This document shows positions 18,345 through 22,797 of a DNA stretch of 64,000 bases, in pieces. Within the stretch, counting starts at the first letter, position 1. Every line of letters starts with the position of its first letter. Source of the stretch: Microbacterium sp. KUDC0406 (GTDB lineage Bacteria; Actinomycetota; Actinomycetes; Actinomycetales; Microbacteriaceae); contig NZ_CP091138.1 of NCBI RefSeq assembly GCF_021582875.1, positions 930,001 through 994,000 of the forward strand. The letters are read 5' to 3'. The translations under genes were made by a program, and so were the position numbers. Below the pieces are notes generated by a model. That model was not told where the DNA came from. It did not search any database and saw only the letters and a list, made by a program, of their open reading frames with translations.

Positions 18345-19943
<1,599 letters not shown>

Positions 19944-19975
19944 GGCGTCGCGGCTGACTGGGCGGGAGCTGCCAC

Positions 19976-20049
19976 GGCAGCATCTCGGAGAACCGCAGAA
20001 TCGCGGATGCTTCCGCGCAGATCTCTCCGGCGTACTGCCGATCTCCGAG
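19976..20049 (+). repeat. 74-bp hairpin repeat, copy A
   Basis: Begins GGCAGCATCTCGGAGAACCG and contains the inner palindrome CGCGGATGCTTCCGCG. About 85 percent identical to copy B by eye. The ends (GGCAGCATCTCGGAGA at the left, ATCTCCGAG at the right) can pair. It lies 32 bp after the ABC-F stop, in direct orientation relative to copy B. Confidence 0.85.
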
Positions 20050-20101
20050 GACTTGTCCCGCGCTGCGACGCTCGTGGCGGAGCCGCTCGCGCGTTGCCCG
20101 C

Positions 20102-20175
20102 GGCAGCATCTCGGAGAACCGCAGATTCCCGGATGCTTCCGCGCAGATCTCTCCGTAATGCTGCGGATCTCCGCG
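20102..20175 (+). repeat. 74-bp hairpin repeat, copy B
   Basis: Same length and orientation as copy A: GGCAGCATCTCGGAGAACCG at the left, CGGATGCTTCCG in the middle and TCTCTCCGTAATGCTGC near the right, which pairs with the left arm (GCAGCAT..GGAGA). It lies in the 5' region of the DUF559 gene, about 70 bp before the chosen start. Confidence 0.85.
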
Positions 20176-20247
20176 CCTGCACTCGCCCTCCACAGGTGGG
20201 TCGGCCCCGGCAGCTGTGCACCGATCGGGAGATTCCGGGGAGTACGG

Positions 20248-21126
20248 ATGCCGACGGCGGGCAAGCTGGCGGGCATGACAGGTGAGGACCGGGCGGAGCG
20301 CGCACTGCTGACGACTCGCGCGCTCGGCGGAGTCGCGCGCGTGAGCACGCTGAGGGACAACCACGTCTCGCGGCACGACGTCGGACTCGCACTCGGCGTC
20401 GGGGCGCTCGATCGCGTGAGGCAGGGATGGGTCGCGGATCCGAGCGCCGATCGGATGCTGGTGGAGGCCGCCCGTCACGGCGTGGTGCTGTCCTGCGTCA
20501 CGCAGGCGAAGCGGATGGGCCTCTGGGTGCATGACGAGGAGTCTGAGCCGCACTGGGCCGCAGACCCCCGGAGCGGGGGAGGGAAGCCCGAGCACGTCCA
20601 CATGCACTGGGCGAGGCCTCTTATCCCAAGGCATCCCGATGCGTTGGAGGACCCGATCGAGAACGTTCTCGCGCTTGTCGCCGACTGCCAGCCGCACGAG
20701 CAGGCACTCGCGACGTGGGAGTCGGCGATGAACCAGAAGCTGGTGAGTCGGGAGGCGCTGACTCGGCTTCCGCTCAAGCGGGTCGCACGTGATCTTCTCG
20801 CCGAGGCGATCCCCTTCGCGGACTCGGGCCTCGAGACCTACCTGCGAACCCGGCTGCACTGGCTCGGCCTGCCGCTGAGATTCCAGATCTGGATCGCCGG
20901 GCATCGCACCGATCTGCTGATCGGGGACCGGCTCATCCTGCAGATCGACGGCGCCACGCACACCGGGACGCAACGCAACGAGGACATCCGGCATGACGCC
21001 GAGCTGCGTCTGATGGGGTACCACGTGATCCGGGTCGGCTACCGCCAGATCATGGACGAGTGGCATGTGGTCCAGGACCTGATCATGCGCGCCGTGGCGC
21101 AGGGCCTGCACCTGGCGCAGCGCTGA
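20248..21126 (+). CDS. DUF559 (Vsr-fold endonuclease-like) protein with AbiEi-type N terminus
   Basis: 292 residues from ATG 20248 (GGGGAG upstream; ATG 20275 is a possible alternative, and the frame stays open upstream through repeat B). The N-terminal part (ALLTTRALGGVARVSTLRDNHVSRHDVGLAL) looks like the winged-helix seen in AbiEi-antitoxin-like proteins. The C-terminal 95 residues fit DUF559, related to very-short-patch-repair nucleases: Glu196, then TDLLIGDRLILQIDG (Asp222, Asp234), a His in ATHTG and the D..R.DAELRLMGYHVIRVGY pattern. Gln232 stands where many relatives have Glu, so catalysis is uncertain. No toxin gene is adjacent. It lies between hairpin repeats. Confidence 0.8.
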   Translation: MPTAGKLAGMTGEDRAERALLTTRALGGVARVSTLRDNHVSRHDVGLALGVGALDRVRQGWVADPSADRMLVEAARHGVVLSCVTQAKRMGLWVHDEESEPHWAADPRSGGGKPEHVHMHWARPLIPRHPDALEDPIENVLALVADCQPHEQALATWESAMNQKLVSREALTRLPLKRVARDLLAEAIPFADSGLETYLRTRLHWLGLPLRFQIWIAGHRTDLLIGDRLILQIDGATHTGTQRNEDIRHDAELRLMGYHVIRVGYRQIMDEWHVVQDLIMRAVAQGLHLAQR

Positions 21127-21170
21127 TCGCGTCGGTCGGCATCTCGTCGCGCTGACCTGCGCCCTTGGGC

Positions 21171-21244
21171 CTCGGGGAACTGCAACATCGCGGAGGCAGC
21201 CGCACCGTCGGCTCCGAGCTCGTGCAGATCTCCGAGATGCTGCC
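21171..21244 (-). repeat. 74-bp hairpin repeat, copy C (inverted)
   Basis: Read on the minus strand it begins GGCAGCATCTCGGAGATCTGC, the same left end as copies A and B, and ends TTGCAGTTCCCCGAG. The middle has diverged, but length and both ends fit. It sits between the DUF559 and HAD genes. Confidence 0.75.
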
Positions 21245-21262
21245 ACGCCGTAGTATGCCGAG

Positions 21263-21883
21263 GTGAGCATACGCGCGATCTGCTGGGACTGGAACGGCAC
21301 GCTGTTCGACGACGTCGAGATCTGCCGGCAGGTGATGAATCGTGTGCTCGTCGAACACGGCTGCGAGCCGTTCGCTGACCTGGCGGCTTATCGCGCGACG
21401 TTCCGCTTCCCGATCCGCGAGTTCTACGCGGATGCCGGGATCGGCGACGATCGCTTCCGTGATGCCGCGGAGCAGTACCTCGCCTGGCTGGAGGGGCGCA
21501 CCGGCGAGGCAGCGCTGCATGCTGGCGTGGACGAGACCCTTGCCGCCGTGACGGCTCGCGGGATGACACAGGTGCTCGCTTCCGCGACGCTGCCTGACCT
21601 GCTCGCGTGTCAGCTGCAGCCGCACGGGTTGGCCGCACGCTTCGATCAGATCCTCTCGATCGCCGATGCCTTCCACCCGTCGAAGCACGATGTGATCGCC
21701 GGCTGGCTGCGCGATTCAGCCTTCGCGCCCGACGAGGTGCTCATGATCGGCGACACGAATCACGACCGCGAGATCGCCGCAGACCTCGGCACGCGCTTCG
21801 TGCACTTCGACGGCGGCCACCAGGCCGCCACTGTCGGCTCTCGCAGCATCCGTTCGCTGAGCCAGGTGCTCGACCTGCTCTGA
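21263..21883 (+). CDS. HAD-family phosphohydrolase
   Basis: 206 residues of the phosphoglycolate-phosphatase-like type. Motif I is present as CWDWNGTLFDD (nucleophile Asp, though the usual DxDGT reads DWNGT, so the acid/base Asp is replaced by Asn), motif II is probably ASATLPD, the Lys is in HPSKHDVI and motif IV is MIGDTNHDREIA. The DWNGT variant occurs in a subset of actinobacterial HAD hydrolases. GTG start 19 bp after repeat copy C. Substrate unknown. Confidence 0.85.
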   Translation: MSIRAICWDWNGTLFDDVEICRQVMNRVLVEHGCEPFADLAAYRATFRFPIREFYADAGIGDDRFRDAAEQYLAWLEGRTGEAALHAGVDETLAAVTARGMTQVLASATLPDLLACQLQPHGLAARFDQILSIADAFHPSKHDVIAGWLRDSAFAPDEVLMIGDTNHDREIAADLGTRFVHFDGGHQAATVGSRSIRSLSQVLDLL

Positions 21884-21905
21884 CCGGCGCCGGATGCCGC
21901 AGCAA

Positions 21906-21978
21906 CTCGGGCTTCTGCCACATCCCGGAGGCCCCGCGGCGAAGCATCCGCGATTCGGCAGATCTCCGCGATGACGCC
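21906..21978 (-). repeat. 74-bp hairpin repeat, copy D (inverted, diverged)
   Basis: On the minus strand it shares TCTGCCGAATCGCGGATGC with copy A (one or two differences) and ends CGAG. It lies immediately after the HAD gene and before the convergent SURF1 gene. The most diverged member. Confidence 0.65.
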
Positions 21979-21988
21979 GCGCGCTCCG

Positions 21989-22797
21989 TCAGACGTGCGC
22001 GTCGAGCAGCGCGTCCTCGGTGTCGGCGTCCTTGTCCCGGCGACGCCGCGGGGCGCGGGCGGACGGCCCTCGGCGTCCTCCTTGGCCTTCGTGACCTCCG
22101 TGCGGATGATGTAGCCGATGAAGATGAAACCCATCACGGCGAACAGGATCCACTGGATCGCGTACGACAGATGCGGGCCGGGGTCTTCCGTGGGCTTGTC
22201 GAATCCGCCCAGCGCCGGCGCGGCGGGCTCTTCCGAGGCCATCTGCCCGTACGCCGAGGTGATCATCTCGAGCCCGGTGTGCTCGGAGATCAGCGGGAGG
22301 TTGATCGTCGGAACCTGTCCCTCCGGTGCCGAGCGCCCGGAGCGGGGGAGCGCCTCGCCGGGCTGCAGCCGTGCGATCACCGTGACCTCGCCGGACGGCG
22401 GTGCGGGCACGGGCGAGGGCTGGGAGTCCTCGGTCGGCGGAACCCAGCCCCGGTTGATCAGCAGGACGCGGCCGTCTTCGTTCTGGAACGGGACGAGCAC
22501 CTCGAACGCCACGGTGCCGTCGTGGGGGCGGTTCCTGGCCAGGACGGTGTCCTCGGGAAGATACGTGCCCTGCAGACGGACAGGCCGCCACTGGTCAGCC
22601 GGATCCAGGGCGCCGTCGGCGGGGATCGTCTCGGCCAGCGACACGGGATCCGCGTCGAAATTCTCCTCGACGAGCTGGATCTGGTGCGCCTTCTCCTGGT
22701 TGCGATCGAACTGCCAGTGCGACAGATACGCGCAGGCCACGGCGAACAGCGCGGCCACCAGCACGTAGACGCCCCAGCGCACGAGACGATTGCTCAC
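21989..22797 (-). CDS. SURF1 family cytochrome oxidase assembly protein, frameshifted
   Basis: Inner-membrane protein of the SURF1 family, thought to help heme A insertion into cytochrome oxidase, so functionally linked to ctaA/ctaB in this window. About 269 residues: N-terminal helix (VYVLVAALFAVACAYLSHWQFDRNQE with the family WQ.DR), PVRLQGTYLPE, LLINRGWVPP, and a C-terminal helix (YAIQWILFAVMGFIFIGYIIRTE). Near the end, one base is missing around 22046-22053 (a G4 run); the repaired tail is RRRRDKDADTEDALLDAHV. The start overlaps the upstream small gene. Confidence 0.9.

Follow-up and report, generated by a model that had tools for sequence, protein, structure and literature searches.

The 64,000-nucleotide (nt) window analysed here, positions 930,001 to 994,000 of contig NZ_CP091138.1 and part of the 3.61-Mb chromosome of Microbacterium sp. 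KUDC0406, carries a nuclease-like gene of the Pfam family DUF559 that is bracketed by copies of a hairpin repeat, and the gene and its hairpins appear to form a two-part system. In such a system the nuclease would recognise its cognate hairpin, and cleavage followed by recombinational repair would spread and homogenise the hairpins, a reading to which we assign a probability of roughly 60%. It draws on sequence comparisons, in which bracketing of the gene, cognate specificity, a shared hairpin architecture, coordinated change and conserved catalytic-site residues are seen; that the protein binds and cuts the hairpins, that repair drives their spread and that the host may benefit are proposals made on that basis.

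The DUF559 gene (20275..21126, plus strand, with an alternative in-frame ATG at 20248) encodes 283 amino acids. It is preceded by hairpin copies A (19976..20049) and B (20102..20175), both on the plus strand, and followed by copy C (21171..21244) on the minus strand, inverted relative to A and B. Copy D (21906..21978, minus strand) is parted from the DUF559 gene by a gene of the HAD hydrolase family, and the repeat is thus not restricted to the immediate vicinity of the nuclease gene. In copy A, with which B shares its orientation, the tail GGCAGCAT points outward and the foldback comes after it. The earlier note had proposed these four copies, with their orientations, and sequence comparison bears them out. 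A family model of 74 positions, termed R1 and built from A–D plus four other copies in the same genome, finds, in a search of the whole window at E ≤ 0.05, copies A–D only, in agreement with the earlier note. Copies A and B share 89% identity across 76 nt. Copies C and D are more diverged: C aligned in register with A reaches 63% identity, and arm-sized inverted pieces match at 82% for A/D (44 nt), 78% for B/D (49 nt) and 76% for C/D (25 nt). When copy A was compared with its own genome by blastn, it retrieved B (E 2.8e-22), part of D (E 3.5e-5) and a 22-nt piece of C (E 0.067), along with remote matches at 2136519, 1.19 Mb away (E 1.3e-10), and at 1222169 (E 1.2e-4). Based on these E-values, A, B and D align directly above chance, while the membership of C is taken from model R1, which was itself built with copy C. 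The further suggestion that every copy folds by pairing its ends holds for A (z -2.1) and B (z -2.7), whose folding is superior to that of dinucleotide shuffles, while for C (z -0.9) and D (z -1.1) no clear advantage is seen.

Matching repeats accompany most of the DUF559 genes tested in the genus. Four other genomes (loci L091–L094) have two R1 copies close together and between them a DUF559 gene, whose product is 56.5–57.9% identical to that of the window. A bracketing test independent of R1 aligned the two 400-nt flanks of each gene, upstream to downstream, in both orientations, with 100 dinucleotide-preserving shuffles per locus as background. A matching repeat in both flanks was found at p ≤ 0.01 in 80 of 90 DUF559 loci of the genus. 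These loci encode proteins 38–100% identical to that of the window and comprise the 30 best protein matches and 60 others chosen from the list. An earlier version of the test had been run on 29 of the 30 best-match loci, and four of the 60 chosen (L133, L162, L169, L179) were known beforehand to be bracketed; leaving those four out gives 76/86. Among other genes of 200–400 amino acids, used as controls, only 5/88 scored positive. Three of the five lie between R1 copies (the HAD gene of the window, a methyltransferase gene in L081 and an APH gene in L090), and the other two are an integrase-domain gene (L083) and one gene at the threshold. The DUF559 gene of the window was the only one excluded from the controls by name; the DUF559 genes of L091–L094 were not excluded and are not among the five. 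The earlier note had likened the arrangement to the repetitive extragenic palindromic (REP) sequences and their REP-associated tyrosine transposases (RAYTs), with a partner of Vsr fold carrying an AbiEi-like module. The bracketing, together with hairpin families that largely follow their cognate DUF559 gene, supports this link and is the opposite of an even spread across the genus without connection to DUF559.

Copies located away from the nuclease genes mostly follow the same pairing. The genome of KUDC0406 holds R1 at 16 places (E ≤ 0.01). Most of these match on both strands, as expected for a palindromic unit; 12 of the 16 are away from the DUF559 neighbourhood at A–D, and the place at 3012420 is at the same time a match to the second family of hairpins in KUDC0406. 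At least one R1 match at the same threshold is found in 74/149 genomes of the genus, including this one, although many are single weak matches. The 83 R1 copies compared across genomes were found with the window's own model, and other hairpin families are not among them; their similarity is higher within genomes (0.711) than between genomes (0.656; 0/1000 permutations). The arm of R1 occurs in two variants, GATCTGC and GATGTGC. Solitary copies agree with the DUF559-flanking copies of their own genome in 38 of the 40 scorable cases out of 52, the other 12 carrying neither variant. Ten further solitary copies, from genome G152, were left out for want of a flanking reference. Among the references, G162, G140 and G111 each have one of two copies with neither variant, and G094 has one copy with both. 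For 20 of the 52 solitary copies, the most similar DUF559-flanking set comes from their own genome, compared with about 1 in 10 by chance, a result that is positive and far from complete.

Separate families of enzyme and hairpin can coexist in one genome. KUDC0406 has three of them. Its second DUF559 gene (809012–809815) is bracketed by a different hairpin with 21 blastn matches genome-wide, both strands counted, and two more DUF559 relatives lie at 1800312 and 2042475. The second family is related to the hairpin of locus L123, from G130. At E ≤ 0.001 the L123-type hairpin has 28 matches in G130 and 25 in G092, each of which carries a DUF559 gene flanked by the L123 type, and 31 in G000, whose DUF559 gene has related flanks of L130 type. 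The same hairpin has 0 matches in five genomes rich in R1 (G168, G060, G008, G090, G162), 1 each in G152 and G140, and 3 in G111. The L132-type hairpin is distributed similarly narrowly, with 4 matches in G060 (2 flanking and 2 at solitary places), 14 in G071 (2 places beside a DUF559 gene, plus solitary ones), one weak match in G163, and none in G000 or G073. By sequence comparison, dispersed extragenic copies are thus mostly cognate to the DUF559 enzyme of their own genome, with exceptions (the L178 type, G065 and G152) that are considered below.

Although the repeat sequences often differ between DUF559 loci, their plan is shared. It consists of a foldback of 60–100 nt in which a short motif occurs in two copies within each arm, at a spacing of 18 or 19 nt. 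Across 112 hairpins from 73 loci (score ≥ 14, arm 20–48, loop ≤ 22), the self-identity of the arms is raised at offsets 18 (0.44) and 19 (0.46) only, against an expected 0.30; at all other offsets from 4 to 29 it stays at 0.23–0.30. The best internal word of at least 5 nt falls at offset 18 or 19 in 80/112 hairpins, whereas shuffled arms give about 1/112 per offset, and control palindromes, taken from the window outside 19900–22000 and from 30 of 80 syntenic loci, give 2/21. Most hairpins therefore contain four motif copies, two per arm, as exemplified by TTCGGGAGG, TCGGA and GCGCTTCG-GCGGA. In the case of R1, remote copies suggest an intact form in which the 24-nt arms pair at 22 columns and leave two unpaired, the loop measures 18 nt and the 8-nt tail is present on one side only. 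Rfam covariance models gave 0 matches up to E 1 in 19500–22500, and 0 at the gathering score in a scan of 9 of the 90 DUF559 loci. The word GGATGC is present in the centres of 42/119 hairpins, compared with a fraction of 0.111 of flank windows. It is given here as an observation without further claim, since GGATGC/GCATCC is unusually frequent across the window as a whole, at 170 occurrences where base composition predicts 45.

The two hairpins of a locus also tend to change together. Grouped by shared neighbours, the 90 loci fall into 18 groups, of which 6 are singletons, and many of them are therefore at orthologous places. The first such site is represented by 22 loci selected out of the 40 in its group; L112 (70%) and L128 (near a contig end) were left out. 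Here, the two hairpins of one locus match with a median score of 53, as against 22 for upstream flanks compared between loci, and the DUF559 proteins present in the alignment have pairwise identities of 0.54–0.94 (median 0.62). A locus's own pair scores higher than the median of the others in 21/22 loci at the first site and 8/8 at a second, in 3/5 and 4/5 at two small sites, and in 3/3 at the site of the window, from which L101 was left out for its flipped orientation. Downstream-to-downstream comparisons were disregarded at the first site, where their high score (132) is probably due to conserved sequence in the 300-nt stretch; they also outscore the own pair at one of the small sites (116.5 vs 92). 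At orthologous loci, both flanking hairpins thus tend to vary in concert.

The protein itself is predicted to be an AbiEi-like DNA binder fused to a nuclease of the Vsr/I-Bth0305I type. Fold prediction, in agreement with the earlier guess, places an AbiEi-like winged helix and a second domain at residues 5–179 and a Vsr/I-Bth0305I-like nuclease domain at residues 184–278, and the best-scoring fold matches are DNA endonucleases and an antitoxin. The predicted nuclease domain is a Vsr-like EDxHD catalytic domain, as in homing endonucleases of the I-Bth0305I type. In an alignment of 75 of the 87 stop-free DUF559 proteins, E187, D213, D225, H229, D237 and D241 are invariant. The AbiEi-type antitoxin, which the N-terminal module resembles, is a DNA-binding protein. 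Relatives of the DUF559 protein are present in 140/149 genomes of the genus, and a single genome may hold as many as 7 paralogues (E ≤ 1e-20). The window's protein matches 0 families at E ≤ 1 among the PADLOC anti-phage models and no family at E ≤ 1 in NCBIfam. A search of phages and plasmids gave no phage match and only two Tsukamurella plasmids at 28–30% identity, and carriage by phages or plasmids is therefore not supported.

The N-terminal module also allows a different role. The hairpins could be binding sites of DUF559 acting as a regulator or chromosome organiser, an AbiEi-like autorepression extended to a regulon, in which the nuclease is uninvolved and the hairpins are immobile. AbiEi antitoxins bind inverted repeats, and the regular spacing of the four motif copies suggests that binding is cooperative. 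Such a role would leave the invariance of the catalytic-site residues in 75 proteins unaccounted for; additionally, promoter control would be ill served by a hairpin downstream of the gene and by hairpins at gene 3' ends, and the abundance of a hairpin family in some genomes and its absence in others points to spread. We therefore consider this explanation improbable, even though it is the best placed of the alternatives.

In the two-part system that we favour, the DUF559 protein would recognise paired motifs on the extruded or single-stranded cognate hairpin, the target being the 60–100 nt unit with four copies of a lineage-specific motif, and would introduce a nick or break at that point. 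With another copy as the template for repair, hairpins would be converted, moved and multiplied, coming to rest mostly at gene ends, and gene-flanking and dispersed copies would be kept alike. When the protein changes, the whole hairpin set would switch to the new motif together. This is the simplest account because the acidic residues are kept, a module resembling a DNA binder is present, the motifs are regularly spaced, and the hairpins follow the enzyme lineage.

Several findings weigh against this account. Neither catalysis nor movement was seen at any step, and both are inferred. PD-(D/E)XK nucleases are not known to join strands, and a transposition like that of RAYTs would therefore need host repair. 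Ten of the 90 loci lack a matching flank pair at p ≤ 0.01. An ungapped palindrome scan, with a threshold at the 99% level of shuffle scores (each the best of three shuffles), exceeds that threshold on both flanks in only 35/90 loci and on single flanks in 54/90 upstream and 54/90 downstream; by this measure, the foldback is not seen at every locus. Stem-pair covariation in the eight R1 copies of KUDC0406 is no better than in shuffled ones, and the claim of structure therefore rests on foldback across unrelated sequences. Outside the genus, matching flanks are found in 13/23 loci at p ≤ 0.01, a count for which there are no control genes from those genomes, and the hairpins there mostly lack the 18/19-nt repeat. 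The pairing of enzyme and hairpin has its own exceptions. The third DUF559 gene of KUDC0406 (3025469, L178 type) has a hairpin with three copies, all beside the gene. In G065, 2/3 scorable solitary R1 copies disagree with the flanking variant, and 17 L123-type matches occur with no cognate at the examined three (L101, L175, L366) of its five DUF559 loci. G152 (L090, L095, L308–L312) has ten R1 copies and no R1-bracketed DUF559 gene among the loci examined, which are not all of its loci; the cognate gene may have been lost or may be among those outside the examined set. Finally, protein similarity and hairpin similarity correlate significantly and weakly over 69 loci (Mantel rho 0.15–0.20 for three protein segments; 0 to 3 of 500 permutations as high), and no claim is made on the residues that set specificity because no segment stands out.

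The positions of solitary R1 copies bring a second alternative into play. According to a crude gene caller, these copies tend to be located at gene ends: of 62, 25 are in convergent, 16 in tandem and 4 in divergent gaps, 12 are inside an ORF (open reading frame) call and 5 at an edge, while the 30 gaps of at least 60 nt in the window comprise 6 convergent, 13 tandem and 11 divergent ones. The preference for convergent ends would suit hairpins that serve as bidirectional terminators or as stabilisers of mRNA ends, by which the DUF559 gene is merely insulated. A terminator-like site with a T run was not found in 19900–22100 by a scan covering loops of 3–8, and this function would leave unexplained the private lineage sequences shared with dispersed copies, the doubling at 18/19 nt and the bracketing of 80/90 loci. 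It is accordingly rather unlikely, and somewhat more so than a regulatory role.

Other genes found between hairpins raise the question of whether DUF559 genes are simply cargo, travelling between copies of non-autonomous elements that are moved by an unrelated transposase. The HAD gene between C and D would fit this idea, as would a GrpB-like ORF (named by eye) beside a hairpin in L192, and methyltransferase, APH and IMS polymerase genes that lie between R1 copies elsewhere. These are individual cases, however, whereas DUF559 is bracketed in 80/90 loci and has private hairpin families, which makes the cargo explanation very improbable. Least plausible of all, and very unlikely, is that the transcribed hairpin is the substrate and DUF559 acts on RNA instead of DNA: the RAP module of FASTKD4, termed Vsr-like in the title of PMC11879112, and mitoribosome chains are among the fold matches (9gek, 9i05), but the top-scoring matches are to DNA-acting enzymes and the antitoxin, and dispersal at the DNA level would be left unexplained.

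The closest parallel to the proposed two-part system is the REP/RAYT system of Pseudomonas, Stenotrophomonas and enterobacteria. According to PMC3686654, REP classes flank RAYT genes, abundance is linked to the cognate enzyme, different REP classes occupy orthologous RAYT loci, and RAYTs are Y1/HUH transposases with a catalytic tyrosine and two histidines. PMC8049555 describes REPINs as non-autonomous elements duplicated by RAYTs, in which two inverted REPs and a spacer form a hairpin. The two systems share a nuclease gene on the chromosome with palindromic repeat copies on its flanks, further copies dispersed at extragenic positions, repeat classes matched to each enzyme and different classes at orthologous enzyme loci. 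The differences concern the enzyme, here a Vsr-like PD-(D/E)XK protein with an AbiEi-like module and not a Y1/HUH tyrosine transposase; the unit, about 23–26 nt for REPs (PMC3686654) and here a 60–100 nt hairpin with a motif doubled in each arm; and the copy number, about 3–20 per family here against 69–235 REPINs in E. coli (PMC8049555). The DUF559/hairpin system works like REP/RAYT and is not a member of it, and is not filed there because the enzyme belongs to a different class from the defining one.

Other relatives of the protein are also distinguishable. Homing enzymes are encoded inside introns or inteins of other genes, whereas the DUF559 gene, despite its likeness to the I-Bth0305I type (EDxHD, Vsr-like), stands alone as an ORF, with ABC-F and HAD genes as neighbours and hairpins on both sides. 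Unlike an AbiE type IV toxin–antitoxin locus, the window has no AbiEii toxin gene among the neighbours (ABC-F, HAD, SURF1), the other DUF559 loci not having been checked for AbiEii, and a nuclease domain is fused to the AbiEi-like module instead. The Vsr very-short-patch repair endonuclease differs by lacking the extra N-terminal module, the hairpin association and the multiplicity of paralogues. No description of DUF559 with repeats was found in open-access papers of PMC, to which the search was confined, and the partnership of repeat and enzyme is apparently undescribed so far. It is about an even bet that DUF559 and its four-motif hairpins represent a new class of actinobacterial repeat-spreading systems, in which a non-HUH nuclease cleaves its own hairpins, recombinational repair multiplies and overwrites them in concert, and enzyme specificity and the genomic repeat set switch together.

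DUF559 is a family without an assigned role, yet it is nearly ubiquitous in the genus, and the association offers a role that can be tested. The predicted DNA target of each family member can be read from the sequence beside its gene. If the proposal is true, it would point to a second origin of the REP/RAYT lifestyle, built on an enzyme of no relation, and two independent systems would allow a comparison bearing on why genomes keep such repeats. In addition, the many natural pairs of enzyme and motif constitute a data set for DNA recognition by AbiEi-like domains.

The site occupied in the window lies between an ABC-F gene (18345..19943, plus strand), its left boundary, and a SURF1 gene (21989..22797, minus strand), its right boundary. 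Copy D lies 10 nt away from what is probably the native stop codon of SURF1. The HAD-family hydrolase gene (21263..21883, plus strand; Pfam HAD_2, E 6.5e-15) is probably a passenger between C and D, and it has no match at E ≤ 1e-8 in 80 ABC-F/SURF1 loci of relatives. Of 80 loci fetched, 77 yielded both genes, and in 70 of these SURF1 and ABC-F converge with less than 700 nt between them. A DUF559 gene occupies this site in 1/80 loci (L192, on the same contig as L101) and also in G115 (L102) and G094 (L117). The opposite orientation in L192 was considered as a second insertion and set aside as such: the locus exists in four genomes (L100, L101, L102, L117), and only L101, identical to L192, is flipped. 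An inversion between the inverted hairpins is an equally likely origin of the flip. The same gap in L190 (7841–9640) contains a different 2-kb insert with DUF222/HNH-like ORFs, named by eye, and it may therefore be a general place of insertion; further gaps of at least 700 nt occur in L209, L242, L250, L263 and L191.

A few minor observations concern the same loci. The SURF1 reading frame of the window is apparently shifted near 22060, and the C-terminus ending in DALLDAHV sits in another frame; SURF1 reads straight through in two translated relatives (L190, L192), and the shift could be a sequencing error. In other families of the order, L285 and L294 have loopless palindromes with 36-nt arms within 400 nt downstream of DUF559, that of L285 being near-perfect. 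The SURF1/ABC-F gap of L222 contains two hairpins of the CAGGA type, recognised by eye, without a DUF559 gene.

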